A DNA stretch of 64,000 nucleotides from Terebella lapidaria. Its lineage: Eukaryota; Annelida; Polychaeta; Terebellida; Terebellidae. This document shows positions 12,584-55,425 of this stretch, one piece after another; position 1 is the stretch's first letter, and every line of letters begins with the position of its first letter. Below the pieces are notes generated by a model. The model ran no database searches. It had not been told where the DNA came from and saw nothing but the letters and a program-made list of their open reading frames with translations. The stretch lies in NCBI GenBank assembly GCA_949152475.1, contig OX424563.1, positions 22,231,001 through 22,295,000 on the forward strand, given 5' to 3'. The position numbers and the translations under genes were made by a program.

Positions 12584-12650
12584 AGGTTACCGGACCTATG
12601 GCCCGATAACCTATTGCCGTCACGTTGCGTCCGTCGTCCGTCCGTCTAGC
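12584..12650 (+). mobile_element. HINE head flanking duplication copy 1
   Basis: Starts after a T run with AGGTTACCGGACC, then GGCCCGATAACCT (head hairpin), followed by CGTTGCGTCCGTCGTCCG. Homology to the second duplication copy begins right after this tract at about 12651. In intact elements such as the one at 26864 the HINE body follows at this point; here a 16-kb segment follows instead. Confidence 0.75.
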
Positions 12651-12949
12651 CGGTCGCCCGGCAACGGTTTGTGAGGTACTTTTTGGGTATGACACGTCCT
12701 TCTGAGGTATTGAATCCTTATGGGGTATCCTCACAAGGATACTGCACCATATCCCCCCTTGTGAGGTTACAGGCATTTTTGGCATGTCGTTGAAATCGAC
12801 CTTGTGAGGAACCGTCCGTTGACATGTCCAACAGTGTCCAATGTGGTTTCGTTGCCCGAACCTAGATGGAGCCACGGCTTGCGAGCATACCGTGAACGAG
12901 TCATTTCACCAGATTTCACCAGATTTCACCCAGGGATCGTTCCCGCCAA

Positions 12950-13083
12950 ATCACCCGCGTGACGTCATATGGCGCGTCAATTTTCGTCCAATCCTATGCG
13001 CGTATTACTCTGAGCATGCGCAGTGACGCGCAAAAGACAGAGATGAGAACATGTCCGTCGGTCAAGATAGCGGTGTTTGTGCA
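12950..13083 (+). promoter_or_regulatory. Probable promoter and noncoding first exon of gene B1
   Basis: A CpG-containing stretch with a full CRE TGACGTCA (12960-12967), CCAAT (12988-12992) and an NRF1-type core GCATGCGCA (13014-13022). It is followed by a strong donor GTAAGTGC at 13084. The next acceptor on this strand that opens gene B1 is at 18582. An upstream ATG at 13051 (MSVGQDSGVCA) cannot read into the main frame because the second exon has stops in all three frames before or at the main start, so it is a uORF. Confidence 0.6.
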
Positions 13084-14366
13084 GTAAGTGCTTGATTTAA
13101 ACGTATAGATGACTGCTAATTTGTCACTGTTGGTCAGGACTGTTATAGAGCAGCTATCGTGGCGTTAAAATATGGGGTAGACATAGACGCAGTGATGAAA
13201 TGATCTGCACGATCCGCCACTCGGATCGGGGCAGCAAGTTGTCAGTTCAGGCTGCCAAGATCATGAAAAAGACGAAAATGTAAAAAAAATCAGACATGCT
13301 AGAATGATCGCAGATAGGGTATTAATCCTACAGATTCTCCCAAATCGGAGTTAGTAACACATGCATGGATAGTTCTAAAAACCTGCAATGTCTGGCGTGC
13401 TCCGTCGACTCGAGTCGAGTCATCAGACTGAGAGACCCCCCCCCACCCCGCCGATTGCCAGTGATTGCTGACTGACTCGGCCCAGTCGGCGTCTCTCAGT
13501 CTCGGGACCAGCGCAGCGAGGAGAAACCGTAGTGATCACTGATAAGTTTTTGGAGCACCTGTCGAATTTTTGGGAGATCATAACGCCCTCAATGTAAAGT
13601 CTAGCATTGTTTAACACGGGGAACAGAACTGATATTTGCCCACTACAGTAGATCTACTAGAGTCTAGGCACTAGAACTATTTGACAGTTAAGCCAAATTT
13701 TTTTCGGCATATTTTTTTTTTAGCCATGGACGAGTATTGAAGTGGTTCACTCAAAATTGTGTGAAAAGGAACATCAGTTGGAAATCAATTCGATTTGAAG
13801 ACATGAAATGAGCGATAATGGATGATAAACACTCACCGTGGGCGTGGGTGTAGACTAGAAGTCTACTGCATGGGCTCTCAGCCCAGTTCAACCGCGGACC
13901 CATTTCAACCGCTCTATACAAACCTATACAACACACGGAATAAGCGGCCTCTGTTTTTAGTGTGCGGTCGAATGGGGGCGCGGTTGAATCGGGCATACCC
14001 CCTGTAGGATCTAGTGGAAATTGGAAATGGACTAGATGAAAATCCGGATTTATTGACACCAAATCTTGCCTGGGAAAAATTTCAAAGTAATAGATCTACT
14101 GAATAAAATTACAGCCACGAGGAAATCAAGGAAGGGCTCAGGGGCATCTTTCAGTTCACATTGTAGGTAGCTGTCAATTACATCAAAGTTCTGTCATTGT
14201 ATGGGATCTGTCATTGTATACGCGACTCGGTCGCGCTCACGACCCGGCCGCCCATGATAAGGAGTTGGGATATCCGGAAAAAGGCCAAGTGTGTAGTGTT
14301 GGGAATCGGTTGGGAATTTGAAATCAATCATCGGAATAATTCATCCAATCAATCATCGATGAACGA
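13084..14366. other. Intron 1 of B1, left part; inverted repeat at 13425-13502
   Basis: No coding exon recognised. A perfect 12-bp inverted repeat, AGACTGAGAGAC at 13425-13436 and GTCTCTCAGTCT at 13491-13502, brackets a C-rich stretch. It sits next to a GACTCGAGTCGAGTC palindrome. Confidence 0.5.
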
Positions 14367-14374
14367 TTATATAA

Positions 14375-15486
14375 TAGGGCCAGAACAAGTACTCGAGTAC
14401 TCGGTTACGAGTCGAGTTTCGTCACAAACCGAGTTTCAAATCCATAACCGAGTACTCGTGAAAATAATTTCAAATAAGACATGGGGTATAAATTCGTTAA
14501 TAAACGATATATTTTCCATTAATTTGTGAACATATAGCATAGTAAAGTTATATAGAGTAATCCATACAGTTTTCGGACACTTAAGGTTAAATCTCAATAA
14601 TGACTGTAGAGAAAAATACCAGATGATTTATTATACATGCAACGGCATATGCACGTAAATGTGGTAAAAGTTATAAAGTCGTATGGAAATATTATTTTGT
14701 CCTGACTTCGATATTGGTGAATTATGAACTGTGAGTTCAAGGGACAGTAATCGGACACCCCAGACAGAAATCGGACACCTTCTGTGTCTTTAAGAATAAT
14801 AACTATATCATTATAATTTTAGGCTATATACATGAAGCTGTCAGTCGGTAGTTGTTGCAAGGCTAAAGATCAGTTATGAAAGAAAATTACGCAGCCCTGA
14901 GGACAGGAAGATCATATAGAGTACACTAGACAGTTTTCGGACACTAACACTAACAGGGAAGCTAACATTGTGGAACTTATCAAACTAGATACCTTTGCTA
15001 ACACTTCGCAGAAATTTCTTCAAACCAGCAAAGACCACAGACACTTGGCTCGTTTCAGTGCTGGAGAAAATTTGTTTGCGACATAATAACTGACATAGAA
15101 AATTGGTGGTAAATCATGAAGTGTCCGATTTCTGGTGGTGTCCGAAAATAGGCTGGATTACTCTATACACCAATTCCGTCTTGAATTTATATTTTTGAGT
15201 GAAATGACATTGACACTTGATCACTGATATGAAATGTTTGCACTTTGCCGCTTTGTTACAACTCGCAACTGGTAAACAAGTTCCTGGAAATTCCAGAAAT
15301 CACAATGACGAGCGCCACCTGGCGAATTAACGGAATAATATTAGACTACCACATTCCCCCGCGTTTCCCGCCAGGCCATTTCTTATCGGACTTATCCTGT
15401 TATAATTAATACCGAGTACTCGGTTACGAGTCGGTTCAAGCATGGCGAGTACTCGGGTCAGAAAATATTGACTTGTTTTAGCCCTA
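14375..15486. mobile_element. hAT-type MITE with 8-bp target-site duplication
   Basis: Ends are TAGGGCCAGAACAAGT and, inverted, TAGGGCTAAAACAAGT (14 of 16 identical). The flanks 14367-14374 and 15487-15494 are both TTATATAA, an 8-bp duplication as hAT transposases make. Subterminal GAGTACTCGGTTACGAGTC motifs occur near both ends. There is no transposase frame, so it is non-autonomous. A second MITE is nested inside. Confidence 0.85.
14555..15163. mobile_element. Tc1/mariner-like MITE nested in the hAT MITE
   Basis: 609 bp with 26-bp terminal inverted repeats beginning GAGTAATCCA and ending TTTTCGGACAC on both sides. It is flanked by TA at 14553-14554 and 15164-15165. TTTTCGGACAC and TCCGAT motifs recur inside. 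No transposase frame. Its position dates it after the hAT insertion. Confidence 0.75.
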
Positions 15487-15494
15487 TTATATAA

Positions 15495-15969
15495 TGATTG
15501 CTCGGTCATAGAGTTGTCTCGTTGATCATTCATGATTGCTCAAAGATTTAGCACTGTCCATCTGACGAAATTTTCCGATTTATAAACCAATTTAAATTTA
15601 TTATGGAACGCCAGTTGACAACTGCATGCGACTTACGATTTGGCTTCATTGCCCCCTTGTATAGATGCACAGTATTCAGCAGTTAGATTGGCTAAAATAC
15701 ATGGAATCACGGTAGTTTGTACCAATTGGGTGTCGTATGCTGGGGGAAACACCGGCCTGGTGGTAACAAAATTGAAAATGTTTTAATTCCATTGCTTTCA
15801 TGGTCTCGAATTCACAGAAAATATCAATTTCTGCACCTTGGTTTATCCCTAATCTTGTTTACCCAGCCACTCCTATTGCACGGATAATATACACTCATGG
15901 CATTCAAGTCGAAGTGAAAAACTTGTCTCGCCAGATTTTCATGCTATTTCTTGAGTAGTCTACATGTCT
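15495..15969. other. Intron 1 of B1, no feature recognised
   Basis: Single-copy-looking AT-rich sequence between the hAT MITE and the 37-bp minisatellite. No exon signals supported. Confidence 0.4.
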
Positions 15970-17627
15970 GGTTGATACAGTCCTTGTGGAGTAGTGTCCA
16001 ACTGTATATTGGTACAGTCCTGCAGTCCTTGTGGGTTAGTGTCCAACTGTGGATAGATACAGTCCTTGTGCGGTAGTGTCCAACTGTAGATAGATACAGT
16101 CCTTGTGGGGTAGTGTCCAACTGTAGATAGATACAGTCCTTGTGGGGTAGTGTCCAACTGTAGATTGATACAGTCCTTGTGGGGTAGTGTCCAACTGTAG
16201 ATTGATACAGTCCTTGTGGGGTAGTGTCCAACTGTAGGTTGATACAGTCCTTGTGGGGTAGTGTCCAACTATAGATTGATACAGTCCTTGTGGGGTAGTG
16301 TCCAACTGTAGGTTGATACAGTCCTTGTGGGGTAGTGTCCAACTGTAAGTTGATACAGTCCTTGTGGGGTAGTGTCCAACTGCAGATTGACACAGTCCTT
16401 GTGGGGTAGTGTCCAACTGTAGATTGATACAGTCCTTGTGGGGTAGTGTCCAACTGCAGATTGACACAGTCCTTGTGGGGTAGTGTCCAACTGTAGATTG
16501 ATACAGTCCTTGTGGGGTAGTGTCCAACTGTAGGTTGACACAGTCCTTGTGGGGTAGTGTCCATCTGTAGGTTGATACAGTCCTTGTGGGGTAGTGTCCA
16601 ACTGTAGATTGATACAGTCCTTGTGGGGTAGTGTCCAACTGTAGATTGATACAGTCGTTGTGGGGTAGTGTCCAACTATAGATTGATACAGTCCTTGTGG
16701 GGTTGTGTCCAACTGTAGATTGATACAGTCCTTGTGGGGTAGTGTCCAACTGTAGGTTGCCACAGTCCTTGTGGGGTAGTGTTCAACTGTAGGTTGACAC
16801 AGTCCTTGTGGGGTAGTGTCCAACTGTCGATTGATACAGTCCTTGTGGGGTAGTGTCCAACTATAGATTGATACAGTCCTTGTGGGGTAGTGTCCAACTG
16901 TAGATTGATACAGTCCTTGTGGGGTAGTGTCCAACTGTAGATTGATACAGTCCTTGTGGGGTAGTGTCCAACTGTAAGTTGATACAGTCCTTGTGGGGTA
17001 GTGTCCAACTGCAGATTGACACAGTCCTTGTGGGGTAGTGTCCAACTGTAGATTGATACAGTCCTTGTGGGGTAGTGTCCAACTGCAGATTGACACAGTC
17101 CTTGTGGGGTAGTGTCCAACTGTAGATTGATACAGTCCTTGTGGGGTAGTGTCCAACTGTAGGTTGACACAGTCCTTGTGGGGTAGTGTCCATCTGTAGG
17201 TTGATACAGTCCTTGTGGGGTAGTGTCCAACTGTAGATTGATACAGTCCTTGTGGGGTAGTGTCCAACTGTAGATTGATACAGTCGTTGTGGGGTAGTGT
17301 CCAACTATAGATTGATACAGTCCTTGTGGGGTTGTGTCCAACTGTAGATTGATACAGTCCTTGTGGGGTAGTGTCCAACTGTAGGTTGCCACAGTCCTTG
17401 TGGGGTAGTGTTCAACTGTAGGTTGACACAGTCCTTGTGGGGTAGTGTCCAACTGCAGATTGACACAGTCCTTGTGGGGTAGTGTCCAACTGTAGGTTGA
17501 TACAGTCCTTGTGGGGTAGTGTCCAACTGTAGGTTGACACAGTCCTTGTGGGGTAGTGTCCAACTGCAGATTGACACAGTCCTTGTGGGGTAGTGTCCAA
17601 CTGTAGGTTGCCACAGTCCTTGTGTCC
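15970..17627. repeat. 37-bp minisatellite with 629-bp higher-order repeat
   Basis: About 45 units of GATACAGTCCTTGTGGGGTA followed by GTGTCCAACTGTAGATT. Variants recur with a period of 17 units (629 bp): for example the variant patterns at 16675 and 16749 return at 17304 and 17378. The unit has no stop codon in any minus-strand frame, so long minus-strand open frames up to 369 codons arise; since 37 is not a multiple of 3 they rotate through the frames and are not genes. Confidence 0.92.
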
Positions 17628-18582
17628 ATATTATGTCAAAACTTCAAATGGAGGAAGCTTGTTACTAGTATGTCCTGTCGTGTTAAACTTTGAATATAAA
17701 TTTCAAGCTTTCATCTTTCAAAGGCTAATTCCTGTTTCCTTTCAGAGAGGACGAACCCCCTAAAGTGCTTATTTCATTTTACTTTGAACACGAGTTTGTG
17801 GGGGCCCTGCATTTTTGTCAAAATTATGACCTAATTGTCACTGATATCAACTTTCTTGGATTCAACTCCATAGTGTTTTTTTATGAAACAGATTTTCTCA
17901 TATTTTATGGGTGGGCACACCACAGGTTTATTCTGAAGTACCTTTTTTGGTTAGAATCATAATTGGATATTTGGATATGGTAAGTAGCTTCTAGCTTGCT
18001 ATGGTAAGTAGCTTCTAGCTTGCATACTTGTTTGTTTTACCTTTGGAATTATATGTATGAATAATATGTTGGTATTCTGCTAGTGTTTTCAAAATGTGAA
18101 TTTACTAATATGCTGATCATTAACCAAATTTGAACACCGCATGTTCAGATTTGCTACTAGTATATCAAGGCTTGAGGTTATAAAACGTAATAACTAACGT
18201 ATGAATTTGATGTAGAAAATTCAGAAATGTAAAAGATTTCTAGGCTGCTGGTGCAAGATTAAATTTAGCTATGAAAGTATGTTCAGTGATTTAAATTTGT
18301 TGTATCATTTGCTAGTCGATTTAAATTTGATTACTGATTTTTGTTTTAAAGGAAGGATAGTGAGGGACTACAATGTCAATGATAAATTCCGGTTGCGAAA
18401 CTCAGGTTGCGTACATTTGGGCTGTAGGTCTATATAATCAGATAATGTAATTTGACTCACTGTACACCCACTATGCATTGTATCCCCCGAACGAGTTGGT
18501 GGAGTTGTACCTGCATCTGCATCTGGTGGAATTGTACCTGCATCTGATGTATAATCCATAAATCTTTGCTTTGTCTTTACAG
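17628..18582. other. Intron 1 of B1, right part
   Basis: Contains a direct repeat of GGTAAGTAGCTTCTAGCTTGC at about 17980-18026. An acceptor-like TTTCCTTTCAG precedes an open stretch at 17745-17960, but no donor before its stop and no domain support an exon. Confidence 0.4.
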
Positions 18583-18611
18583 CTTCACATTGACCATATC
18601 AAGTTAGCGCC

Positions 18612-21600
18612 ATGGACATGATGGACACTTTGGAAGGTTTGTTTTGAAATGAAGCAGTTATAATTATAACTTATAATTATCTAGCGATAGACGCATGTAA
18701 AGTTGTGATGTTAAAGTTTTTGTCCCCCGGAGGGGGGACATATAGTTGTGAGGTTGTTCCCGCGAGGCGTGAGGCGCCAGGCGTGAGCCACCGAGCTTGT
18801 ACACTCTCTAAGAGGAAGAGATATCTTTACGAATGTTTTGTCCTGAACTCAGCCGACAATCTTACGCTTTTAAGATGGCGACCACAATTCCACAATTTGC
18901 ACAAATTGAATGTATCAGCAATCACTGATGTTGGCGGTCCGGGGGAGTCGGGGGGACACTGGTTGCACTGCCTCTAGTTACTTCTAGTGGGAACAAAAAC
19001 TTTTCCAATCTACATTTCAGGACAGCTGCTCTGGTGTCCGCTACCAGGAACCGGGACCATGTGTTGGCCAGTGCTATGCACTGAAGATTATGGAACACTT
19101 CTGGATGTATATTGTCATTCTGACAATGCAGAGTAAGTACATCTAGCAAGACATATTTAGAAATTTGTAGTGGTGGAAAAAATATATATTTTATATATGA
19201 CATTAATGCATAGTAATGCAATACTTTTGATCCAATGAAAAAATCCACTAATTTATGGAATGTTACATGATGTACACACTGAAATTGTGGTATGTATCAG
19301 ATTCACTGTGAAGAAAGAAAAGGCTGTACAGTTAGTGAAAAATATGGAATTCATCCAAAAAGGCAAAGGTATCAACTAGCAGCAGTGTTTATTGATAAGC
19401 CACAATGACAGTTGGTTTCCTGCTGTTTTGTTCTTGTTAGGGCATTTTGGCACGAAATGTCCTTATTTTGTTTCAGGTTTTACTTTCCACCGTTGGATTC
19501 CGCATGATAACTTGAATTTGGCTGAACCGATTGTTGTAAAATTTCACGACTGATCACAAATGTCATGAGGGAGACCCTTATTGCCTTTTGTTGTAGAGTG
19601 AAAATGACCTGGCATATTTTCATACCCGTGGCCTTAGACGAATATGCCTTAGAAGTTGGGCTGGAATTTATTTTGCCGAGTCAATTTTTTTAAATTTTCA
19701 GCCATATCTGATGTATCTTGGAAACTATAGAGCCTAACCTATCTATCTTTTTTAGACCGATTGAAGGCAAGACCACATACGTTGAGAGCCTTTATACAGG
19801 ATGTTGCATGGGCACAGACTTCGCTAGCTGAGAGGCAGTCTGCAGAGGTTCGTGATGATTTTTTTCTGCACATCTTTGTAACGTTGTGTATGGTGCACGT
19901 AGACTAACAAACATATCCCATGATTGTCATGGTTCAGGCCGGGGCGGACGTAGCTCAGGACCAGCCACTGGCCGAGGCTGACGTAGCTCAGGACCAGCCA
20001 CAGGCCGAGGCGGACGAGGCTCAAGACCAGCCACAGGCCGAGACGGACGTGACTCAGGACCAGCCACAGGCCGAGGCGGACGTAGCTAAGGACCAGCCAC
20101 AGGCCGAGGCGGACGTAGCTCAGGACCAGCCACAGGCCGAGGCAGACGACCAGCCACAGGCCGAGGCAGACGTGGCTCAGGAACAGCCTAAGGCCGAGAC
20201 GGTTTGTGATGAAATATTTCTGCATATCTCTGTAAATTTGTGCTTCGTGCAAGTACACATAGACTACCACACATACCCTATCATTCCAGGTCGAGATGGA
20301 AGTCACTCAGGACCAGCCACAGGCCAAGGCGGACGTAGCTAAGGACCAGCCACAGGCCGAGGCGGACGTAGCTCAGGACCAGCCACAGGCCGAGGCAGAC
20401 GTGGCTCAGGAACAGCCTCAGGCCGAGGCGGACGTAGCTCAGGACCAGCCACAGGCCGAGGCGGACGTAGCTAAGGACCAGCCACAGGCCGAGATGGACG
20501 TAGCTCAGGACCAGCAACAGGCCGAGGCGGACTTCGCCCAGGACCAGCCACAGGCCGAGAAGGTTTGTAACGAAATATTTCTGCACATCTCTGTAAATTT
20601 GTGCTTGGTGCAAGTACACGTAGACTAGCACACATACCCCCATGATTATCATTCCAGGCCGAGGCGGACGTAGCTCAGGACCAGCCACAGGCCGAGGCGG
20701 ACGTGGCTCAGGACCAGCCACAGGCCGAGACGGACGTGGCTCAGGACCAGCCACAGGCCGAGGCGGACGTGGCTCAGGACCAGCCATTGGCCGAGGCTGA
20801 CGTAGCTCAGGACCAGCCACAGGCCGAGGCGGACGAGGCTCAGGACCAGCCACAGGCCGAGACGGACGTGGCTCAGGACCACCCACAGGCCGAGGCAGAC
20901 GTGGCTCAGGACCAGCCACAGGCCGAGGCGGACGTGGCTCAGGACCAGCCACAGGCCGAGACGGACGTGGCTCAGGACCAGCCACAGACCGAGGCGGACG
21001 TGGCTCAGGACCAGCCACAGGCCGAGGCAGACGTGGCTCAGGACCAGCCACAGGCCGAGGCGGACGTAGCTCAGGACCAGTCACAGGCCGAGGCGGACGT
21101 GGCTCAGGACCAGCCACAGGCCGAGACGGACGTGGCTCAGGACCAGCCACAGGCCGAGACGGTTCGTGATGAAATATTTCTGCATATCTCTGTAAATTTG
21201 TGCCTCGTGCAAGTACACATAGACTACCACACATACCCTATCATTCCAGGTCGAGATGGAAGTCACTCAGGACCAACCACAGGCCGAGACGGACGTGGCT
21301 CAGGACCAGCCACAGACCGAGGCGGACGTGGCTCAGGACCAGCCACAGGCCGAGGCAGACGTAGCTCAGGACCAGCCACAGGCCGAGACGGACGTGGCTC
21401 AGGACCAGCCACAGGCCGAGGCGGACGTGGCTCAGGACCAGCCACAGGCCGAGGCGGACGTAGCTCAGGACCAGTCACAGGCCGAGGCGGACGTGGCTCA
21501 GGACCAGCCACAGGCCGAGACGGACGTGGCTCAGGACCAGCCACAGGCCGAGACGGTTCGTGATGAAATATTTCTGCATATCTCTGTAAATTTGTGCCTC

Positions 21601-24600
21601 GTGCAAGTACACATAGACTACCACACATACCCTATCATTCCAGGTCGAGATGGAAGTCACTCAGGACCAGCCACAGGCCGAGGCGGACGTGGCTCATGAC
21701 CAGCCACAGGCCGAGACGGTTTGTGATGAAATATTTCTGCACATCTCTGTAATGTTGTTCGTGGTGCAAGTACACGTAGACTACCACACATATCCTATCA
21801 TTCCAGGTCGAGATGGAAGTCACTCAGGACCAGCCACAGGCCGAGGCGGACGTGGCTCATGACCAGCCACAGGCCGAGACGGTTTGTGATGAAATATTTC
21901 TGCACATCTCTGTAATGTTGTTCGTGGTGCAAGTACACGTAGACTAGCACACATACCCCTATGATTCATTCCAGGTCGAGATGGAAGTCACTCAGGACCA
22001 ACCACAGGCCGATGCTAATAGATCTACAAAGATGGTGGACCGTGGTAGGTCTCGAAAACGTACACTTGACCATAGGAGAAGGTCCAGAAACAGAAATAAG
22101 CAGATGGCTCGTAAAAAACCAAGAACTCGAGATCAGTTTAATTCTGATGACATCGTTGAAGACAGTGATTCAAGTGGCAGTTCAGTTAACTCAGTTCCGC
22201 GCATATCACTCCACATGAAGGGATCCAAGAATGGAGAAACGGGAGACGAGCCTAATTCTGATGATGATGGAGACAGCGAATCTAGTGGCAGTCCGCACGT
22301 ATCACTCCACACGAATGGAACCAAGACTGGTGAAGAGACAGATAGTAGTATGGGCAGTGATAATGAATCCGAAGGTGATGCAAATCGTGATGTGGTCGCA
22401 CCAGCAAGAAGCGGATATGTCCATGATGTAACATACCCTGACATTTTCGTGTCTGCTGTAAGGAAAGAAAACGGCAAACGCATTTTTAACAGTAGACACT
22501 GCTGCCTTTTCTGCTCGAAAGTTGTCAGTAATTTTTCGAAGCATCTCATTGGTCAGCATGATGATGAACCTGAGGTGGCTCGGCTGTTGGCACTTGGAAA
22601 ACGTAGCAAGCATCGAAAGCAAGCCATAGAATGTCTCCGTAATAAAGGGAATGATCTCAACAACACCAAGGTCTTGAAAAGAAGGAAGGGAGAGGTATTC
22701 CTTGTCAGAAGAAGTACAGGAAGTACGTTTGATATAGGACTATACGGAAGCTGTGCCAACTGCTTCGGCTGGTACGCCCTCGCTGACATCGCCAAACATA
22801 ATCGATACAGATGTGTTATGAAGGGAGACGTGAAATATAAGAAGGGCGAGCTTGTGTACATTGCCGAGTCACGGAAAGCACCCCAGAATACCAGCAAGAT
22901 GGATGACAAAATACTTGGAAAGATGTTCGCACACATGCGTACGGACAAGGTCACAAGGGTCATCAAATCAGATATACTTCTAAAAAAACTAGCCACTTTC
23001 TGGTATAGAAAGTGCATCCGGAACAAATCGAAAAGAGTTAGGTATTCTTCACAGAGAGTCCGGGCTTCATCGAATCTTCTGATTAAGGCACGAGACCTTT
23101 ACAAAGAAGACGACGACAGAGCAGAACAGGCCATAACAGATATGCCCTCGATGCTGAAACCTTCTCACTTCGATACGGTAGTGGAAGCTGCCTTGCAAAA
23201 CAGTCACAAAGGTGACGACTATGATTACCTTGAAGAAGATCTCCGACATCCGAGTGTTGCTCTCAAGCTAGGCTTTGACATCGAACGTTTATGCACTTTC
23301 AAGATCTCCTATGGTATGACGAGTGGTGACGAAAAAACTGTAACGGAAGGAAAGTGCTTCTTGCAGATGATGAAGACAGACTGGAAGCCCAGAGTGACAT
23401 CTTTATGCCAGTCCCTGCTGGAGGAAAGAAAGTTCAACAAGGTTGTGAAGCTTCCCACACCTAGCGACTGTGCAAAGTTTACTACATACCTCAAGTCCAA
23501 ACTGCTACATTTAGATGACAAGATGTCGTTTGCGGAAATCGCAGAATATACAATTGCAAGACTAGTAACATACAACAAGAGGAGACCAGGGGAGCTTGAG
23601 GGAGCCAGGTAAGTCTATTACACAAATGTGAAATCATTTTATAAGCCGAACAAGATAGCATGATGCTAGACTTTTGATAGAGTAATCTAATATTAAAAAC
23701 TTTAATCTATTTTATTTTTCAGGATAAATAACTGGAAACAGAGAGACAATCATGATGAACTCATCAATGAGGTAGACCTAACAAATGTAGAAAAACAGTT
23801 AGTCACTGACCAAGACGTCTTCATTGTAAGAGGAAAGTTTGGACGGGGAGTGCCTATTATTGTACCAAAGGACACGAAAGCAGCGATGGCTTTCCTATGT
23901 GATGTCGACAATCGAACAAAAGCACGCATCAATGAGGACAACCCATACATTTTCCCTACATCAGGTAGAATAGTATCATTTGAATAGTTAATACTTAATT
24001 TGTGTGTGTACTGGCAATTTTGAAGTTATATAAATTGTGTGTATTAAATGACAATTTTGCAGGTGAATATCCAATGAGAGCAGGTGAAGTTCTACACAAA
24101 GTAGCATCCAATGCAGAAGTGAATCTTAACTTCCCGGTGTTGATGAAATCTACTCTTTTACGAAAAACATTAGCGACATCTGTACAGGTGGGTAGATTTT
24201 TATGACATTGAGACACAGATATATAGTAAAAAAGCCCTGATGCTGTTATCTCGCATATATCCTCTGATGAATTTTTGCAGACCCTTGACCTACCGGACAA
24301 TCACATGGAGTATCTCATCAGACACCTGGGTCACACGTTGCGTGTTCATGAAACACATTATCGCCAAACATCCGGGATCATTGAGAGGGCAAAGATCGCA
24401 AAGCTTCTTATAGCGTCTGAGTATGGTGTCCTAGGGAAGTTCAAGGGAAACAACCTGGACAACATTGATATATCTGGTAAGATGTCCGGTTACACAATAA
24501 TATACTCAATATTACCCTTACTTTTTATCATGCATGTACTACAAACTAACTTTTGAATGAGGATTTTTTTCCCCTTTGCAGCTATTGATAAAACTTTGAC

Positions 24601-30721: not shown

Positions 30722-30769
30722 GGTAGTTTGTGAGAAGAAATACGTTTCGCGCGGGGATTTTTTACTCAC

Positions 30770-32299: not shown

Positions 32300-32348
<49 letters not shown>

Positions 32349-44154: not shown

Positions 44155-47100
44155 ATGGACATGATGGACACTTTGGAAGGTTTGTTTTGAAATGAAGCAG
44201 TTATAATTATAACTTATAATTATCTAGCGATAGACGCATGTAAAGTTGTGATGTTAAAGTTTTTGTCCCCCGGAGGGGGGACATATAGTTGTGAGGTTGT
44301 TCCCGCGAGGCGTGAGGCGCCAGGCGTGAGCCACCGAGCTTGTACACTCTCTAAGAGGAAGAGATATCTTTACGAATGTTTTGTCCTGAACTCAGCCGAC
44401 AATCTTACGCTTTTAAGATGGCGACCACAATTCCACAATTTGCACAAATTGAATGTATCAGCAATCACTGATGTTGGCGGTCCGGGGGAGTCGGGGGGAC
44501 ACTGGTTGCACTGCCTCTAGTTACTTCTAGTGGGAACAAAAACTTTTCCAATCTACATTTCAGGACAGCTGCTCTGGTGTCCGCTACCAGGAACCGGGAC
44601 CATGTGTTGGCCAGTGCTATGCACTGAAGATTATGGAACACTTCTGGATGTATATTGTCATTCTGACAATGCAGAGTAAGTACATCTAGCAAGACATATT
44701 TAGAAATTTGTAGTGGTGGAAAAAATATATATTTTATATATGACATTAATGCATAGTAATGCAATACTTTTGATCCAATGAAAAAATCCACTAATTTATG
44801 GAATGTTACATGATGTACACACTGAAATTGTGGTATGTATCAGATTCACTGTGAAGAAAGAAAAGGCTGTACAGTTAGTGAAAAATATGGAATTCATCCA
44901 AAAAGGCAAAGGTATCAACTAGCAGCAGTGTTTATTGATAAGCCACAATGACAGTTGGTTTCCTGCTGTTTTGTTCTTGTTAGGGCATTTTGGCACGAAA
45001 TGTCCTTATTTTGTTTCAGGTTTTACTTTCCACCGTTGGATTCCGCATGATAACTTGAATTTGGCTGAACCGATTGTTGTAAAATTTCACGACTGATCAC
45101 AAATGTCATGAGGGAGACCCTTATTGCCTTTTGTTGTAGAGTGAAAATGACCTGGCATATTTTCATACCCGTGGCCTTAGACGAATATGCCTTAGAAGTT
45201 GGGCTGGAATTTATTTTGCCGAGTCAATTTTTTTAAATTTTCAGCCATATCTGATGTATCTTGGAAACTATAGAGCCTAACCTATCTATCTTTTTTAGAC
45301 CGATTGAAGGCAAGACCACATACGTTGAGAGCCTTTATACAGGATGTTGCATGGGCACAGACTTCGCTAGCTGAGAGGCAGTCTGCAGAGGTTCGTGATG
45401 ATTTTTTTCTGCACATCTTTGTAACGTTGTGTATGGTGCACGTAGACTAACAAACATATCCCATGATTGTCATGGTTCAGGCCGGGGCGGACGTAGCTCA
45501 GGACCAGCCACTGGCCGAGGCTGACGTAGCTCAGGACCAGCCACAGGCCGAGGCGGACGAGGCTCAAGACCAGCCACAGGCCGAGACGGACGTGACTCAG
45601 GACCAGCCACAGGCCGAGGCGGACGTAGCTAAGGACCAGCCACAGGCCGAGGCGGACGTAGCTCAGGACCAGCCACAGGCCGAGGCAGACGACCAGCCAC
45701 AGGCCGAGGCAGACGTGGCTCAGGAACAGCCTAAGGCCGAGACGGTTTGTGATGAAATATTTCTGCATATCTCTGTAAATTTGTGCTTCGTGCAAGTACA
45801 CATAGACTACCACACATACCCTATCATTCCAGGTCGAGATGGAAGTCACTCAGGACCAGCCACAGGCCAAGGCGGACGTAGCTAAGGACCAGCCACAGGC
45901 CGAGGCGGACGTAGCTCAGGACCAGCCACAGGCCGAGGCAGACGTGGCTCAGGAACAGCCTCAGGCCGAGGCGGACGTAGCTCAGGACCAGCCACAGGCC
46001 GAGGCGGACGTAGCTAAGGACCAGCCACAGGCCGAGATGGACGTAGCTCAGGACCAGCAACAGGCCGAGGCGGACTTCGCCCAGGACCAGCCACAGGCCG
46101 AGAAGGTTTGTAACGAAATATTTCTGCACATCTCTGTAAATTTGTGCTTGGTGCAAGTACACGTAGACTAGCACACATACCCCCATGATTATCATTCCAG
46201 GCCGAGGCGGACGTAGCTCAGGACCAGCCACAGGCCGAGGCGGACGTGGCTCAGGACCAGCCACAGGCCGAGACGGACGTGGCTCAGGACCAGCCACAGG
46301 CCGAGGCGGACGTGGCTCAGGACCAGCCATTGGCCGAGGCTGACGTAGCTCAGGACCAGCCACAGGCCGAGGCGGACGAGGCTCAGGACCAGCCACAGGC
46401 CGAGACGGACGTGGCTCAGGACCACCCACAGGCCGAGGCAGACGTGGCTCAGGACCAGCCACAGGCCGAGGCGGACGTGGCTCAGGACCAGCCACAGGCC
46501 GAGACGGACGTGGCTCAGGACCAGCCACAGACCGAGGCGGACGTGGCTCAGGACCAGCCACAGGCCGAGGCAGACGTGGCTCAGGACCAGCCACAGGCCG
46601 AGGCGGACGTAGCTCAGGACCAGTCACAGGCCGAGGCGGACGTGGCTCAGGACCAGCCACAGGCCGAGACGGACGTGGCTCAGGACCAGCCACAGGCCGA
46701 GACGGTTCGTGATGAAATATTTCTGCATATCTCTGTAAATTTGTGCCTCGTGCAAGTACACATAGACTACCACACATACCCTATCATTCCAGGTCGAGAT
46801 GGAAGTCACTCAGGACCAACCACAGGCCGAGACGGACGTGGCTCAGGACCAGCCACAGACCGAGGCGGACGTGGCTCAGGACCAGCCACAGGCCGAGGCA
46901 GACGTAGCTCAGGACCAGCCACAGGCCGAGACGGACGTGGCTCAGGACCAGCCACAGGCCGAGGCGGACGTGGCTCAGGACCAGCCACAGGCCGAGGCGG
47001 ACGTAGCTCAGGACCAGTCACAGGCCGAGGCGGACGTGGCTCAGGACCAGCCACAGGCCGAGACGGACGTGGCTCAGGACCAGCCACAGGCCGAGACGGT

Positions 47101-50100
47101 TCGTGATGAAATATTTCTGCATATCTCTGTAAATTTGTGCCTCGTGCAAGTACACATAGACTACCACACATACCCTATCATTCCAGGTCGAGATGGAAGT
47201 CACTCAGGACCAGCCACAGGCCGAGGCGGACGTGGCTCATGACCAGCCACAGGCCGAGACGGTTTGTGATGAAATATTTCTGCACATCTCTGTAATGTTG
47301 TTCGTGGTGCAAGTACACGTAGACTACCACACATATCCTATCATTCCAGGTCGAGATGGAAGTCACTCAGGACCAGCCACAGGCCGAGGCGGACGTGGCT
47401 CATGACCAGCCACAGGCCGAGACGGTTTGTGATGAAATATTTCTGCACATCTCTGTAATGTTGTTCGTGGTGCAAGTACACGTAGACTAGCACACATACC
47501 CCTATGATTCATTCCAGGTCGAGATGGAAGTCACTCAGGACCAACCACAGGCCGATGCTAATAGATCTACAAAGATGGTGGACCGTGGTAGGTCTCGAAA
47601 ACGTACACTTGACCATAGGAGAAGGTCCAGAAACAGAAATAAGCAGATGGCTCGTAAAAAACCAAGAACTCGAGATCAGTTTAATTCTGATGACATCGTT
47701 GAAGACAGTGATTCAAGTGGCAGTTCAGTTAACTCAGTTCCGCGCATATCACTCCACATGAAGGGATCCAAGAATGGAGAAACGGGAGACGAGCCTAATT
47801 CTGATGATGATGGAGACAGCGAATCTAGTGGCAGTCCGCACGTATCACTCCACACGAATGGAACCAAGACTGGTGAAGAGACAGATAGTAGTATGGGCAG
47901 TGATAATGAATCCGAAGGTGATGCAAATCGTGATGTGGTCGCACCAGCAAGAAGCGGATATGTCCATGATGTAACATACCCTGACATTTTCGTGTCTGCT
48001 GTAAGGAAAGAAAACGGCAAACGCATTTTTAACAGTAGACACTGCTGCCTTTTCTGCTCGAAAGTTGTCAGTAATTTTTCGAAGCATCTCATTGGTCAGC
48101 ATGATGATGAACCTGAGGTGGCTCGGCTGTTGGCACTTGGAAAACGTAGCAAGCATCGAAAGCAAGCCATAGAATGTCTCCGTAATAAAGGGAATGATCT
48201 CAACAACACCAAGGTCTTGAAAAGAAGGAAGGGAGAGGTATTCCTTGTCAGAAGAAGTACAGGAAGTACGTTTGATATAGGACTATACGGAAGCTGTGCC
48301 AACTGCTTCGGCTGGTACGCCCTCGCTGACATCGCCAAACATAATCGATACAGATGTGTTATGAAGGGAGACGTGAAATATAAGAAGGGCGAGCTTGTGT
48401 ACATTGCCGAGTCACGGAAAGCACCCCAGAATACCAGCAAGATGGATGACAAAATACTTGGAAAGATGTTCGCACACATGCGTACGGACAAGGTCACAAG
48501 GGTCATCAAATCAGATATACTTCTAAAAAAACTAGCCACTTTCTGGTATAGAAAGTGCATCCGGAACAAATCGAAAAGAGTTAGGTATTCTTCACAGAGA
48601 GTCCGGGCTTCATCGAATCTTCTGATTAAGGCACGAGACCTTTACAAAGAAGACGACGACAGAGCAGAACAGGCCATAACAGATATGCCCTCGATGCTGA
48701 AACCTTCTCACTTCGATACGGTAGTGGAAGCTGCCTTGCAAAACAGTCACAAAGGTGACGACTATGATTACCTTGAAGAAGATCTCCGACATCCGAGTGT
48801 TGCTCTCAAGCTAGGCTTTGACATCGAACGTTTATGCACTTTCAAGATCTCCTATGGTATGACGAGTGGTGACGAAAAAACTGTAACGGAAGGAAAGTGC
48901 TTCTTGCAGATGATGAAGACAGACTGGAAGCCCAGAGTGACATCTTTATGCCAGTCCCTGCTGGAGGAAAGAAAGTTCAACAAGGTTGTGAAGCTTCCCA
49001 CACCTAGCGACTGTGCAAAGTTTACTACATACCTCAAGTCCAAACTGCTACATTTAGATGACAAGATGTCGTTTGCGGAAATCGCAGAATATACAATTGC
49101 AAGACTAGTAACATACAACAAGAGGAGACCAGGGGAGCTTGAGGGAGCCAGGTAAGTCTATTACACAAATGTGAAATCATTTTATAAGCCGAACAAGATA
49201 GCATGATGCTAGACTTTTGATAGAGTAATCTAATATTAAAAACTTTAATCTATTTTATTTTTCAGGATAAATAACTGGAAACAGAGAGACAATCATGATG
49301 AACTCATCAATGAGGTAGACCTAACAAATGTAGAAAAACAGTTAGTCACTGACCAAGACGTCTTCATTGTAAGAGGAAAGTTTGGACGGGGAGTGCCTAT
49401 TATTGTACCAAAGGACACGAAAGCAGCGATGGCTTTCCTATGTGATGTCGACAATCGAACAAAAGCACGCATCAATGAGGACAACCCATACATTTTCCCT
49501 ACATCAGGTAGAATAGTATCATTTGAATAGTTAATACTTAATTTGTGTGTGTACTGGCAATTTTGAAGTTATATAAATTGTGTGTATTAAATGACAATTT
49601 TGCAGGTGAATATCCAATGAGAGCAGGTGAAGTTCTACACAAAGTAGCATCCAATGCAGAAGTGAATCTTAACTTCCCGGTGTTGATGAAATCTACTCTT
49701 TTACGAAAAACATTAGCGACATCTGTACAGGTGGGTAGATTTTTATGACATTGAGACACAGATATATAGTAAAAAAGCCCTGATGCTGTTATCTCGCATA
49801 TATCCTCTGATGAATTTTTGCAGACCCTTGACCTACCGGACAATCACATGGAGTATCTCATCAGACACCTGGGTCACACGTTGCGTGTTCATGAAACACA
49901 TTATCGCCAAACATCCGGGATCATTGAGAGGGCAAAGATCGCAAAGCTTCTTATAGCGTCTGAGTATGGTGTCCTAGGGAAGTTCAAGGGAAACAACCTG
50001 GACAACATTGATATATCTGGTAAGATGTCCGGTTACACAATAATATACTCAATATTACCCTTACTTTTTATCATGCATGTACTACAAACTAACTTTTGAA

Positions 50101-52292
50101 TGAGGATTTTTTTCCCCTTTGCAGCTATTGATAAAACTTTGACAGACTATGCTCAAGCAGAAGGTGTGTATGGCTGTATGCTAGTACCAAGTATCTCAAT
50201 ATTTGGTATGTTTTGTTCAAATATTTCTGGTTGTCATCTTTTCTACATTACCTTGTTGGTAGGAGTGGCAGGGAGAAAGCCTGGTGGGCGTGACGATGGC
50301 ATTGAAGAGCCCCCAGTGTCTAACAGACGTCGCCAAACAGGTCAGCAAGTGTTTGCCACAAAGTAAACCTCTTGAATTGTATTGTTGAGTAGCAGACTGG
50401 GACACAGTGACTCATCTTTTATACATTACCTTGTTGATAGGAGTGGCAGGGAGAAAGTCTCGTGTGCGCGACGATGTTGGGCGTGACGATGGTGGGCGTG
50501 ACGATGACGATGGTGGGCGTGACGATGACGATGGTGGGCGTGACGATGGCCTTGAAGAGCCCCCAGTGTCTAACAGACGTCGCCAAACAGGTCAGCAAGT
50601 GTTTGCCACAAAGTAAACCTCTTGAATTGTATTGTTGAGTAGCAGACTGGGACACAGTGACTCATCTTTTATACATTACCTTGTTGATAGGAGTGGCAGG
50701 GAGAAAGTCTCGTGTGCGCGACGATGTTGGGCGTGATGAAGGTGGGCGTGACGATGGTGGGCGTGATGATGACGATGGTGGGCGTGACGATGACGATGGT
50801 GGGCGTGACGATGGCCTTGAAGAGCCCCCAGTGTCTAAAAGACGTCGCCAAACAGGTCAGCAAGTGTTTGCCACAAAGTAAACCTCTTGAATTGTATTGT
50901 TGAGTAGCAGACTGGGACACAGTGACTCATCTTTTATACATTACCTTGTTGATAGGAGTGGCTGGGAGAAAGTCTCGTGTGCGCGACGATGTTGGGCGTG
51001 ATGATGGTGGGCGTGATGATGACGATGGTGGGCGTGACGATGGTGGGCGTGACGATGACGATGGTCGGCGTGAAAATGACCATGGTGGGCGTGACGATGG
51101 CCTTGAAGAGCCCTCAGTGTCCAGCTCTAACAGACGTCGCCAAACAGGTCAGCAAGTTTTTGCAACTGAACTTGGTAAAATTGTGGTAGGTATCTTGTTT
51201 AAACTGCATATTTGGAATGGTCTTGTCAGTAATGTTCACGTCCTGTGCTGATGACAAAATTTTATGTAGTTTTCGGCTTATGTTGCAGAAAAAAGGAAAT
51301 ATACTGATACAACAGACAGTGACGACTCGTACAGTCAGCCAGAGAGGAAGAAAACTGTAGCAAGTACCAGTAAAGCAGGCATGTGCGAGTTTTGGTTGAA
51401 TATTACACGATTCAGTGGCCATTTTTCAATGCCAGATACATGTTCGGTCAAAATTATGTACTTTCCTCAAGTTCATATTTTTGAAAGTTTACTTACTGGT
51501 ACTAAAAAGATTACTGGCTTCTGATAATTGGTACTAATTATCAACAGGTTCGAAAAACTCCAGACTGATTAAGAGAGACTTGCAGAAGCATCGTGATGGG
51601 ACGGAGTGGTTACGTAAAATTCGAAAACCGCCTCCAGGTAATTTGATGCACTTTATTGGGAGACAGCTATTAAACTGGGAGACCTTGTGAGGTATTTCGC
51701 CACTTGGAGACCTCGTGAGAGTCCTATTCTCATGCAGTTACTATAGGAATTTCTAGGTATTATTTTCCGAGTATTTATATATGTATAGACAATTTATAGT
51801 CGCATAGCTTAGTATAATGTTCTCTTTGTTCATAGGTTCGGTGAAAGCCATCAAGGTGAACATGGTGAAGGTGTCTGACCCAGATTACGTTCCCGATAAT
51901 CCATCAGGTAACTTGTAATTAGTGACTAATAATGCAAGATGTTTATTATTTTTCAGCGCAGTTTGCGTGCACTTAGCCATGGTGTTTATCCAATTACATT
52001 GAAATTCACAAAATGCCTGGTGAACAAAATATAATTTTTGCTTTGACTACTTGAAAACTGGTTTACAGGTGCCGAAGAGCATATTGCCAAGCGGCCGCAT
52101 GTTAACTGGGAAGAAGAAGAAACACGAGAATTACGTACATTCTTCAGCACATGCCTTGACCAAAAAAAAGTTCCAGGAAAGAAAGCATGTCTGCATGCAA
52201 TCGCACAAAGTGCAATCAATGGCGGACAGCTGCAAAGGAGATCATACACGAACATTATTAAAAAAATATCAAATATGAATAGGAAATATTAA
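44155..52292 (+). CDS. Gene B2: second copy of the 23-exon tyrosine recombinase gene
   Basis: All B1 exons recur at +25,543 (first ATG 44155, large zinc/YR exon 47518-49151, box II/III exons 49606-49730 and 49824-50019, last exon 52069-52292). Splice sites, phases and translated segments appear the same, including the GC donor after 51378. The predicted protein is again ~1,696 residues with YR residues Arg (NKRRPGEL), Arg (LLRKTLAT), His (LGHT) and Tyr (HETHY). The only change seen near the gene is in the 5' untranslated exon. Both copies are free of stops, so both look functional or one is an assembly duplicate. Confidence 0.78.
44257..44545. mobile_element. MITE in the intron between B2 coding exons 1 and 2
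   Basis: Copy of the 18714 element with the same AAGTTTTTGTCCCCC and GGGAACAAAAACTT ends. Confidence 0.48.
45481..47424 (+). repeat. Tandemly duplicated phase-0 exons (B2)
   Basis: Six exons made of 33-bp AEADVAQDQPQ units, the same number and lengths as in B1. Confidence 0.87.
50263..51147 (+). repeat. Tandemly duplicated phase-1 GRDD exons (B2)
   Basis: Four exons (78, 150, 165 and 192 nt) as in B1, with the same internal GRDD counts. Confidence 0.87.
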
Positions 52293-52406
52293 CTTGAGGA
52301 TAACTTAAGGGTGTTTCAGCCAACACATCAGTTTCAGAGTATCAGAATGTTACTAGATAAGACTAGAAAGAATGTTGCTGTTGTTCTCGCATTCCAACAC
52401 TATTTT

Positions 52407-53412
52407 AGGTTACCGGACCTATGATCAGATAACCTATTGGCATAGCGTTGCGTTCGTCGTCTGTCATGTACATTTTTACCTTTTTTTGTGTACGGGCGAA
52501 TTTTTATTAAATTTTGCTCATAAATGCCTAAAGAATAATTCAATCGGGAGGTATTTTTCGGTTTTTTGATTTTCGCAATTTTTCCAAAATGGCGGCCGTT
52601 TTCGTAGAAAATCGGCCAATTTTGGACTTTGCCACTTTGGCGGCCATTTTCTCATATTCTGTTCAGTAACTTTTTTTCTTTTTTTTTTTTGCACAAGGAT
52701 GCTTTGTTATGTCCTTCATAACGTGTATAAGTTTTGTTGGCCTTGAGTCGCTCGAAGTGCGCCATTATGCTTATTATAACTTATCCAAATGGGACTTTCC
52801 CATGTTAAATTCTCCTGTGCTTCATAATGGGACACATTATTACAAATATCTCACTTAATATTGAGATTAGAGCTTAGCAATCAATTGTGGACATATAGGA
52901 AATGATGTATGCCGAATATTCTGGTGACGTTGAATTTGACCTTTGACTTCATTTTCAAGGTCAGAGCACAAAATGGCTAATAACTCGCTTATTATCGACT
53001 TTATGGCTTGGGAATCAATTGTGGACATATAGGAAATATTTGCCGAATATTCTGTTGATCTTGAATTTGACCTCATTTTTAAGGTCATTTGCACAAAATG
53101 GCTAATATCTCGCATATTATCGACTTTACAACTTGGGAATCAATTGGGACATAAAGGAAATGATATATGTCAAATATTCTGATGACCTTGAATTTGACTT
53201 TTGATCTCATTTTCAAGGGCAGAACACAAAATGGCTAATATCTCACTTATTATCGACTCTACAGCTTGGGGACCAACTGTCGACATATAGGAAATGATAT
53301 ATGCTGAATATTCTGATGACCTTTGACCTTATTGTCAAGGTCAGAGCACATAGTGACTGAAAAAACACAACATTTTCTGGTAACCTATTTCAGCCCTTGG
53401 GCTAATTTTTTT
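52407..53412 (+). mobile_element. Complete HINE, duplication copy 2
   Basis: Copy of the 26864 element, with head, body, core units and hairpin tail. Confidence 0.8.
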
Positions 53413-53880
53413 GTCACAGTGGAAGTTGAATGACGATATAGCAAATGTTGTAATCTTCATTTGAAAGGGTAAAAAAGTACCTGATGTTAATTTCACATGA
53501 ATCATGCAAATATGTGCACTGTGTTAATGTGTGTGATAATGCAAATAAATTCATAATATAATTTGATAATTTGTAGTTTTATCCAAAGAAATATCCATTT
53601 CTTTCGGAATAAAAACTCAGACAATCGTTCCCCTTCCCCCACCACTACAGAGCATCGGGAGAGGGGAGGGGGGTCTCCCCTTATATAGGGCAGCGTCGGA
53701 CCTTACTGAATGCTAAAACTCTTGTGGGCAATTGGTAACTAGTGTTATAACTGGCAAGACTGAGGTATTGTGCGGGTAGTACAAGAGGGGAGACTGGTGG
53801 TGTATTAACCAACTGGAGACCTTGTGCGGCAATGTATGTCTAAGTCCGCTGGTGAATCCTTGTGAGGAAGTGTTCAACCT

Positions 53881-54303
53881 GGGAGTAGTGTCCAAGTTGT
53901 ATGACCTTGTGAGGTAGTGTCCAAGTTGTATGACCTTGTGAGGTAGTGTCCAAGTTGTATGACCTTGTGAGGTAGTGTCCAAGTTGTATGACCTTGTGAG
54001 GTAGTGTCCAAGTTATATGACCTTGTGAGGTAGTGTCCAAGTTGTATGACCTTGTGAGGTAGTGTCCAAGTTATATGACCTTGTGAGGTAGTGTCCAAGT
54101 TGTATGACCTTGTGAGGTAGTGTCCCAGTGGTATGACCTTGTGAGGTAGTGTCCAAGTTGTATGATCTTGTGAGGTAGTGTCCAAGTTGTATGATCTTGT
54201 GAGGTAGTGTCCAAGTTGTATGATCTTGTGAGGTAGTGTCCAAGTTGTATGATCTTGTGAGGTAGTGTCCAACTGGAGACCTTGTGAGGTAGAATATCGC
54301 ATT
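53881..54303. repeat. 29-bp minisatellite, duplication copy 2
   Basis: Same ~14 units as at 28338-28760, followed by the (CCGT)n edge of the duplication. Confidence 0.9.
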
Positions 54304-54413
54304 CCTTGTGAGTTACTTTGCGTGTCCTTCCGAGGTATCTTCACAAGGGTGAAACTGACCCCCAAAATTACCTCGCAAGGGCAGTACCTCATAATCCCCT
54401 AGCGGCAGTATAG

Positions 54414-55425
54414 CCGTCCGTCCGTCCGTCCGGCGTTAACATTTTTATCTTTAAAGTTAACAATCGAATCTTTCTGAAATTTTGCACAAAAATGCCTAAA
54501 AATATTTTGAGAAGGAGGTATTTTTTTGTTTTTTGATTTTCGCATTTTTTTCAAAATGGCGGCCGTTTTTGTCGAAAAACGCTCAATTTTGGACTTTGAC
54601 GGCCATTTTCTCAAAAACTGTCTGATCAGTTTTGAGTTTTTGGTTTCAAAAGATTCCCCTCATATACCTCTGTGATATGTATAAGTTTGGTTGCCCTAAA
54701 TCTGCCGGTTTTCGTGTGGCGGCCATTTTTGAATTTTTGGGGGGTCGGCGAAAAAAAATTTTTTCGCCCCAGATCGCATTACTATCCATTTTGGGCCATT
54801 TCTAGAGCAAAAAAAAATTTTCACCCTTTGAAAAAAATTTTGGACTTCGAAAATTTTCGGCACTTTTTCCCTTTATAATGGGAGCTGTCCTGACTGTACT
54901 CATAGAACGCTTGAAGATAGAGCTTAGAAATTGGCACTTTCAAATGGGAAGTCATATATGGCGACTTGTGTGGTGACCTTGAATTTGACCTTGGATGACC
55001 TTGAAAGGTCAAAACAGCCATTTTGGGGTCAAAAAATGCCCAGATTTGCCTTTGTAGATGAAATGCTTGCAGATAGAGCTCATGTTTGCATTATGAACAT
55101 ATAGGAAGACATATATGGCACAACTAATGATGACCTTGAACTTGACGTCAGATGACCTTGAGTGCCAAATGTCTGACTTGGAATGTGTAAATTGACCTGA
55201 GCGGCCTAAACGATTCCACCCAACATATAGAATATCAAATGCCGCACACATACATGTAATGGTTACATCGAAGTTCATACGGATGACCTTGATTGGTAAA
55301 TCCCAAGGTCATATGTTTACACTGCGAACCTTGATTGGTAAATCTCAAGGTCTGTTACCTGCCAATGCTGCCATGGCCAAACCAAAATTGTCCGGTAACC
55401 TATCTTAGCCTTTGGGCTAATTTTT
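54414..55425 (+). mobile_element. HINE body and 3' tail flanking duplication copy 2
   Basis: (CCGT)n, body (TTAACATTTTTATCTTT, CAAAATGGCGGCCGTTTTTG), a core with ATGACCTTGAACTTGACGTC, and tail GTCCGGTAACCTATC plus TTAGCCTTTGGGCTAATTTT. It differs from the body after copy 1 (28870), which has a long TGACCTTTGACCT core array, and is closer to the element at 36920. Confidence 0.75.

Follow-up and report, generated by a model that had tools for sequence, protein, structure and literature searches.

A candidate tyrosine-recombinase transposon of Terebella lapidaria that appears to use the CCGT repeat of HINEs as its attachment site

A 64,000-nucleotide stretch of the genome of the annelid Terebella lapidaria (assembly GCA_949152475.1, contig OX424563.1, positions 22,231,001 to 22,295,000; hereafter the window) holds two nearly identical blocks of 16.2 kb, each lying within the CCGT microsatellite of a HINE, and the question raised by this locus is what moved: the HINE together with its contents, a segment passed between microsatellites, or the block itself. 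Judging from sequence, we consider it probable, at roughly 0.88, that the block is a DNA transposon moved by its own intron-bearing tyrosine recombinase (YR), with the CCGT repeat of HINEs as its attachment site, and the best reading of its kind would be a Crypton-like animal YR transposon. We arrive at a YR transposon because its ends are nearly fixed, because it occupies many loci, because a YR is found in 12 of 12 long copies while no YR match was found in the short ones, and because insertion takes place in a single register. To our knowledge, little is known about how animal YR transposons choose their sites and leave them.

A comparison of the window with itself by BLAST gives a single match of 16.6 kb (12578-29192 against 38113-54738, 99.5% identical with gaps included). 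Trimmed to the element, the two copies, W1 and W2, measure 16,218 and 16,210 bp and are more than 99.9% identical over aligned bases, differing by one substitution in 16,175 aligned bases and by four indels of 10, 2, 33 and 33 bp, three of which are located in tandem repeats. The copies and their shells are arranged as follows:

12584-12652, plus strand: left half of the W1 shell, HINE head and CCGT tract, with junction triplet TAG at 12647-12649, then CCG
12653-28870, plus strand: YR element copy W1, family A, 16,218 bp
28871-30721, plus strand: right half of the W1 shell, remaining CCGT tract, HINE body, core and 3' tail
38119-38203, plus strand: left half of the W2 shell, HINE head and CCGT tract, with junction triplet CGT at 38198-38200
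38204-54413, plus strand: YR element copy W2, family A, 16,210 bp
54414-55425, plus strand: right half of the W2 shell, remaining CCGT tract, HINE body and tail

This bears out what the first-pass annotation of the window had proposed, namely that both blocks are bounded by the (CCGT)n tract, inside which the element runs from 12653 to 28870 and from 38204 to 54413, that each is preceded by a HINE head of the same orientation (starting at 12584 and 38119) and followed by a HINE body, core and tail (ending at 30721 and 55425), and that the shared part is the cassette and not the shell, since the two heads differ from each other, as do the two bodies. As to homology reaching beyond the tracts, which the annotation had named as a point against mobility, W1 and W2 show ordinary HINE-to-HINE similarity only. 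When the flanks are rejoined without the cassette, those of W2 match an uninterrupted HINE elsewhere in the genome at 97.6% over 207 bp, and those of W1 do so at 88.7% over 194 bp. The label HINE itself agrees with the anatomy given in a study of C. gigas, in which HINEs have a head with subterminal inverted repeats, a 4-nt microsatellite of GTCC type, a variable spacer, a tandem core, a 3' palindrome and T-rich insertion sites (PMC7492417); head, microsatellite, core and palindrome are the parts in agreement here. Each copy lies with its flanks in one unbroken piece, and between the two there is a 200-N assembly gap (36133-36332). This gap is abutted by a 673-bp direct repeat (34053-34725 and 35460-36132, 99.4% identical), possibly an assembly artefact.

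How widely does the element occur? DNA searches of the 762-Mb genome, in which the window is C9:22231001-22295000, found at least 36 left and at least 34 right ends, which combine into at least 33 pairs on many chromosomes, W1 and W2 included. These numbers are lower bounds, the best 40 of 87 right-end candidates, 40 of 44 left-end candidates and 102 of 265 YR candidates having been scored; left-end matches confined to query 927-1000 (four) and right-end matches to the array only were left out of the pairing, and 13 YR matches of families A to D were entered into it by hand. All 12 of the longest pairs (14.1-24.2 kb) contain a YR match, and in none of the 21 shorter ones (6.6-11.0 kb) does a YR start among the YR matches listed for the nine contigs that carry them; the short pairs are apparently non-autonomous forms. 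By lineage, YR identity is 97-100% in family A, 66% in B (4 loci), 55% in C (3 loci) and 60% in D (a single locus, at which the left end was not found). In particular, a short family B copy read over its whole length (L088, 6,684 bp) has both ends, an exon similar to the last exon of W1 (26527-26750) and a 90-copy array, and is without the YR exons; by its structure, it is an apparent internal-deletion, non-autonomous form. In a long B copy (L092 with L093, 16,585 bp), the order of the YR matches and the points at which they are interrupted are unchanged, and all five catalytic residues are present. Both further copies and identical outer ends at different loci, which the annotation had suggested looking for, are thus on record, and its suggestion that the YR gene could be the mobility gene gains from the many loci with the same ends, the lineage-specific YR of the long copies and the short derivatives in which no YR match was found.

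Within family A, the copy on C53 differs from W2 by no substitution in 16,210 positions and by one 10-bp indel. The copy on C199 (18.9 kb) is 98.8-100% identical to W1 outside tandem arrays, the whole-copy alignment figure of 97.6% reflecting arrays that were mis-aligned, and an older copy on C5 is about 96-99% identical outside arrays, decayed, and carries indels within its YR exons. Judging by the substitution-free copies at different loci, the YR transposon would have moved recently. Two internal differences may be recorded beside these figures. About 0.6 kb (14555-15163) is found in W1, W2 and C53 and is missing from C199 and C5, which points to either a recent insertion into the element or a deletion. 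The C199 copy has about 3.1 kb extra (L011 3717-6851) near W1 position 15417, a nested insertion.

The junctions can be read base by base. A right-end pattern, CGG(C/G)AGTA-NNN-CCGTCCGTC, matches 32 times in the genome and not once when reversed, and NNN is TAG in 28 matches, TGG in two, TGT in one and CGT in one. Decayed ends (C5:26.97 Mb), an inverted copy and family E, described below, fall outside this pattern; three right ends that it missed (L095, L100 and L103) read TAG, and that of the old C5 copy reads CGT. On the left, 20 of the 36 ends were fetched and read, and the triplet before CCG is CGT in 13 and TAG in six (TAG in W1; CGT in W2, C53 and C199), with one junction, L057, not fitting; in one TAG case (L048) the element adjoins a lone CCGT unit next to the tract. 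The general form is therefore ...AGTA-TAG-CCG on the right and (CGT or TAG)-CCG-element on the left, within CCGT repeats that belong to differing HINE bodies. Insertion occurs at one register of CCGT, and every flank read is HINE-like. The alignment of junctions that the annotation had asked for hence gives like element ends in 19 of the 20 left junctions and in the 32 right ends found by pattern, across diverged families.

The exception, L057, is instructive. On its left lies a HINE body and on its right a HINE head, both in reverse, and this copy must therefore have been inserted opposite to its HINE, something that neither capture by a HINE nor homologous crossover between tracts would predict:

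C6:18548555-18564951: family B copy (L057/L095), opposite to its HINE, with left junction ...ACG-TCCTCCCGCC and right junction TAG-CCGGACGG

A spacer of about 190 bp was also seen within the CCGT tracts, between head and body, at L020, L044, L048, L069, L089 and the right flank of the C53 copy, beginning, where read, with GGGCAAACGGAACGGAG or GGGCATACCAGAAGGG; it could belong to the HINE as a spacer or be a further insertion that targets the tract.

If the ends of family B are joined as in a circle, they give CCCTTGGCGGGAG-TA-TAGCCG-TC-CTCCCGCCAGGGG, whose arms flank a short spacer and form an inverted repeat with 12 of 13 positions matching; the arms of family A agree at 7 of 13 only. YR sites typically have inverted arms of 11-13 bp and a spacer of 6-8 bp, according to Kojima and Jurka (PMC3212892). 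TAGCCG in the element corresponds to CGTCCG in the tract, and we infer that TAGCCG is the 6-bp overlap. On this basis, the YR would join the element ends and excise the element as a circle intermediate, and strand exchange would then run over the overlap, TAGCCG against CGTCCG of the tract, with the CCG halves pairing and TAG/CGT forming a heteroduplex. The element would mostly retain TAG at its right end, and the CGT (or TAG) of the target would remain at the left. Excision, in turn, would either restore the tract unmarked or turn CGT into TAG, a scar that leaves the number of bases unchanged. The HINEs would be the host of the element and not its vehicle.

Such putative scars, which would read CCGTC-TAG-CCGTC, can be looked for. 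The pattern CCGTCCGTCTAGCCGTCCGTC occurs at 457 places in the genome, its reversed control at none, and a pattern open to all 27 triplets sharing no position with CGT again gives exactly 457, so that no triplet of the 27 other than TAG occurs; triplets one or two changes away from CGT lie outside this count. The equivalent pattern in a neighbouring register has one match. The 457 are places, some of them paired in one tract or adjacent to a live element, and do not equal 457 empty tracts. Twenty TAG sites, hand-picked from 100 listed of the 457, were read by eye: 18 adjoin a recognisable HINE head, the position in the tract varies, and one body type, gcgttaacattttt, is present in 10, several others making up the remainder. 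We read the 457 places as probable excision scars, part of which may have been multiplied by the spread of HINEs. Two lie in the window:

4891-4904, plus strand: CCGTCTAGCCGTCC, putative scar in a HINE tract beside a third YR element (family E)
6655-6668, plus strand: CCGTCTAGCCGTCC, putative scar in a HINE stretch in which no element was seen

The latter lies between the two members of a HINE-like direct repeat (5189-6638 and 7130-8577, 99.2% identical).

The gene that would drive these events occupies the middle of the element, between arrays and terminal motifs. In W1, the parts are:

12653-12830, plus strand: left terminus with motifs of the CCTTGTGAGGTA type, 72-73% alike to family B and 74-75% to family C
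15972-17624, plus strand: 37-bp tandem array of 44.5 copies, bearing motif CCTTGTGGGGTAGTGTCCAA
18612-19368, plus strand: putative first exons of the element gene, starting ATGGACATGATGGAC, splicing read by eye
19935-22012, plus strand: coding-type tandem repeats upstream of the YR exons, 33 bp (VAQDQPQAEAD) and an overlapping 163-bp unit
21978-23608, plus strand: large YR exon, 5' boundary provisional, with zinc-finger-like CxxC...H motifs, core-binding part and Arg I (NKRRPGE)
23723-23964, plus strand: YR exon with the catalytic Lys (RGKFGRGVP)
24063-24187, plus strand: YR exon with Arg II (STLLRKTLAT)
24281-24476, plus strand: YR exon with His (RHLGH) and the nucleophile Tyr (HYRQ)
24582-24620, plus strand: small YR exon
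26527-26750, plus strand: last exon (by eye), with a weakly Myb/SANT-like C-terminal segment (Pfam E=0.017, below the cut-off)
26864-27869, plus strand: nested HINE, its aligned stretch present in W1, W2, C53, C199 and the older C5 copy
28342-28749, plus strand: 29-bp tandem array of 14 copies, close to the right end
28750-28870, plus strand: right terminus, ending GGCAGTA-TAG, 78-79% alike to family B

The nested HINE had been cited as an example of an intact one; it is indeed there, but its CCGT tract is short and degenerate. The catalytic residues seen in the YR are Arg, Lys, Arg, His (in LGH) and Tyr, and a relative shows the YR fold, its catalytic domain being of the XerD/Cre type. Pfam, among whose families is DUF3504, returned nothing at E≤1 for the YR exons and nothing above the cut-off for proteins P0001 and P0004, while a sequence search of the PDB gave three matches (best E 0.46) with no recombinase among them. 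The best named YR protein matches are from scallops, a sea star and an oyster, with further ones in an insect and other bivalves. In a Pfam scan of the cassette in six frames at E≤0.01, with stops read as X and introns left in, no domain at all was found, reverse transcriptase (RT), RNase H, DDE and Rep/helicase included, and no gene cargo was recognised beyond the YR gene; nor was a viral gene found by Pfam, although no direct search for nimaviral genes was made. With up to two mismatches, CCTTGTGAGGTA occurs 70 times in W1, 68 of them on one strand and mainly at both ends and in two arrays, and not once in 17.9 kb of flanking sequence. For GTGTCCAA, the window has 118 occurrences against 3.2 expected, always on the plus strand and always within the three YR elements (10, 54 and 54); nearly all of these copies stand in tandem arrays and are hence not independent. 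Both repeats could serve the YR protein or its zinc finger as arm-type binding sites.

How well do other explanations account for the same data? The annotation had offered a Helentron-like element that captured the gene, i.e., HINE or Helentron machinery moving the whole by rolling-circle spread, and the HINE-like nature of the flanks read, together with the joint presence or absence of shell and cassette between C53 and C3, would fit. However, near-identical cassettes are found within shells that vary from copy to copy, the junctions at the flanks read are at the tract and not at HINE termini, one copy (L057) runs counter to its shell, and the cassette contains no Rep/helicase Pfam domain, so that we hold this to be very improbable. 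Segmental duplication or ectopic recombination between CCGT tracts, the plain alternative of the annotation, would require no transposition, and such tracts are common and the two copies in the window just 25 kb apart. As a general cause it is scarcely credible, given 33 end-pairs with the same ends on many chromosomes and across diverged families, the inverted copy, TAG in 28 of 32 right ends, which a homology-driven crossover would not lead one to expect, and a W1-W2 similarity that past the tract is merely that of one HINE to another. Haplotig artefact was likewise considered as a general cause and rejected. More weight is due to strand-biased copy-out in place of cut-and-paste, as in bacterial SE elements and Tn554, with donors staying filled and the 6 bp of the right end travelling along: the right triplet is near-constant (TAG in 28 of 32) while the left mostly follows the target, and there are near-identical copies. 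Yet by itself copy-out gives no account of the 457 TAG sites in tracts, and in SE elements, for which strand-biased copy-out is described, the travelling 6 bp derive from the left flank of the donor, several recombination proteins being present in SE/Tn554 (PMC10214605), whereas here they would derive from the right end; we think it unlikely. Unlikely, too, is the idea that the CCGTCTAGCCGTCC sites never were scars: they could be a variant that certain HINE subfamilies inherited, and which the element might favour as its natural target. One body type, gcgttaacattttt, does account for 10 of the 20 sites read, and TAG at 6 of the 20 fetched left junctions and at W1 is what landing on such sites would produce; against this, TAG is exactly the end triplet of the element, and it occurs in identical register, at changing points of the tract and with several further body types as well.

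Several observations do not fit smoothly or limit the reading, and they should be stated together. In Cryptons, the R-H-R-Y tetrad includes an HxxR box; here the His of that box is replaced by Thr or Ser (TLLRK, SNMRK). The right ends are more constant than the left, where simple resolution of a heteroduplex would give more symmetry; this asymmetry could stem from landing on old scars, from repair bias or from strand-biased copy-out. The exact separation of W1 and W2, about 25 kb as assembled, is uncertain owing to the 200-N gap. Finally, no clean allelic empty site was found. The pair tested was C53 and C3, where the flank of the C53 copy is allelic to C3:41.772 Mb and the entire shell is gone from C3 as well, which does not make for a clean cassette-only polymorphism:

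C3:41771800-41774600: allelic difference between C53 and C3 (L087), whole nested HINE shell and YR element absent on C3

For the C199 copy, a genome search with its right flank gave, besides itself, repeat matches only.

Distant relatives live in the same habitat. The left edge of the window holds the right part of a third YR element, of a family, E, whose YR is about 35% identical to that of family A:

1-4887, plus strand: third YR element, family E, right part, with YR matches at about 1626-2369 and 2653-3181, ending GTTAGTA-CGT-CCGTC in a HINE tract

In this copy the match lacks a conserved Lys motif, and the left end of the element was not found within 9 kb upstream of the window. By YR match, sister copies are found at C1:86.43 Mb and C3:41.41 Mb, the one on C1 being 97% identical, with the same right end and a different HINE body. 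Two right ends, TACGGGAGTA-TAG/CGT-CCGTC, represent a family F, whose subterminal sequence is by eye unlike that of A; YR matches of 38-39% lie 4 and 9 kb off on the same strand and are linked to these ends by proximity. The CCGT target is thus common to lineages whose other non-coding sequence has diverged. Tentatively, then, a clade of animal YR transposons (A to F, with YR identity down to about 35%) may depend on HINEs as its habitat and use their microsatellite as its attachment site, such that a CGT-to-TAG scar left by excision, perfectly matching the element's own 6-bp overlap, would be the better landing site, and the elements would build their own docking sites, multiplied by the spread of HINEs. 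Elsewhere in the window, there is a tandem repeat at 57466-58029, with three copies of a 190-bp unit that are 98% alike.

We did not find such an element described in the open-access literature, judged mostly by titles and abstracts. With ends, target, overlap and putative scar legible to the base at dozens of loci, its recombination mechanism is directly testable, and it shows plainly how one transposon family can live within another. The HINEs of C. gigas also have microsatellites of GTCC type (PMC7492417), and the same niche may thus exist in bivalves.

How does the element compare with known systems? Like a Crypton, it has a YR as its sole recognised mobility enzyme, with neither RT nor DDE found. 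According to Kojima and Jurka 2011, fungal and oomycete Cryptons have short end repeats of 4-6 bp as recombination substrates, non-autonomous derivatives are reported, and animal members, known from several phyla, are without a C-terminal domain and without terminal repeats that could be found (PMC3212892). Here, the end repeat is TAGCCG on the right and (TAG or CGT)CCG on the left, with a CCG that belongs to the target as well; the element differs in its 16 kb, its introns, its large tandem arrays, its zinc-finger-like and C-terminal segments (the latter doubtful, E=0.017), the Thr/Ser in place of the box-II His, a microsatellite target inside another transposable element, and the lack of a Pfam match. 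We refrain from classing it as a Crypton, since HxxR lacks its His and the C-terminal segment is doubtful, the comparison being one of motifs and domains. It is neither a HINE nor a Helentron, which match the shell and provide the target and not the mobile unit of the cassette, since both ends of the cassette lie within the shell and Pfam matched no Rep/helicase domain in it, and it is no DIRS or Ngaro element, RT and RNase H not having been found in the six-frame scan. Starships are large YR-driven elements described from fungi, and the annotation's loose comparison with them holds for enzyme class and mechanism only: no Pfam family was matched here and no gene cargo recognised. By analogy, one would expect the element to act like a Crypton or like an integrating phage or Tn916, with a YR, a short overlap and a circle intermediate. 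Tn916, with its coupling sequences, and SE/Tn554 share with it a 6-bp overlap, a tolerated target mismatch that passes between element ends and target, and a footprint; those are bacterial, however, and here the right end is constant, so that the analogy is one of mechanism only. The nearest functional parallel would be the YR of nimaviruses, which targets a telomeric microsatellite: the YRs of endogenous nimaviruses of crustaceans are in some cases multi-exon, in some cases carry C2H2 zinc-binding and SAM-like parts, and integrate into (TAACC)n, while nimaviral genomes measure 300-360 kb in one genus (PMC10871703). The likeness, in YR genes and simple-repeat integration, is by description and not by sequence; compared with these viruses, the element of T. 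lapidaria has 16 kb, one recognised gene and, as its target, the CCGT repeats within HINEs.

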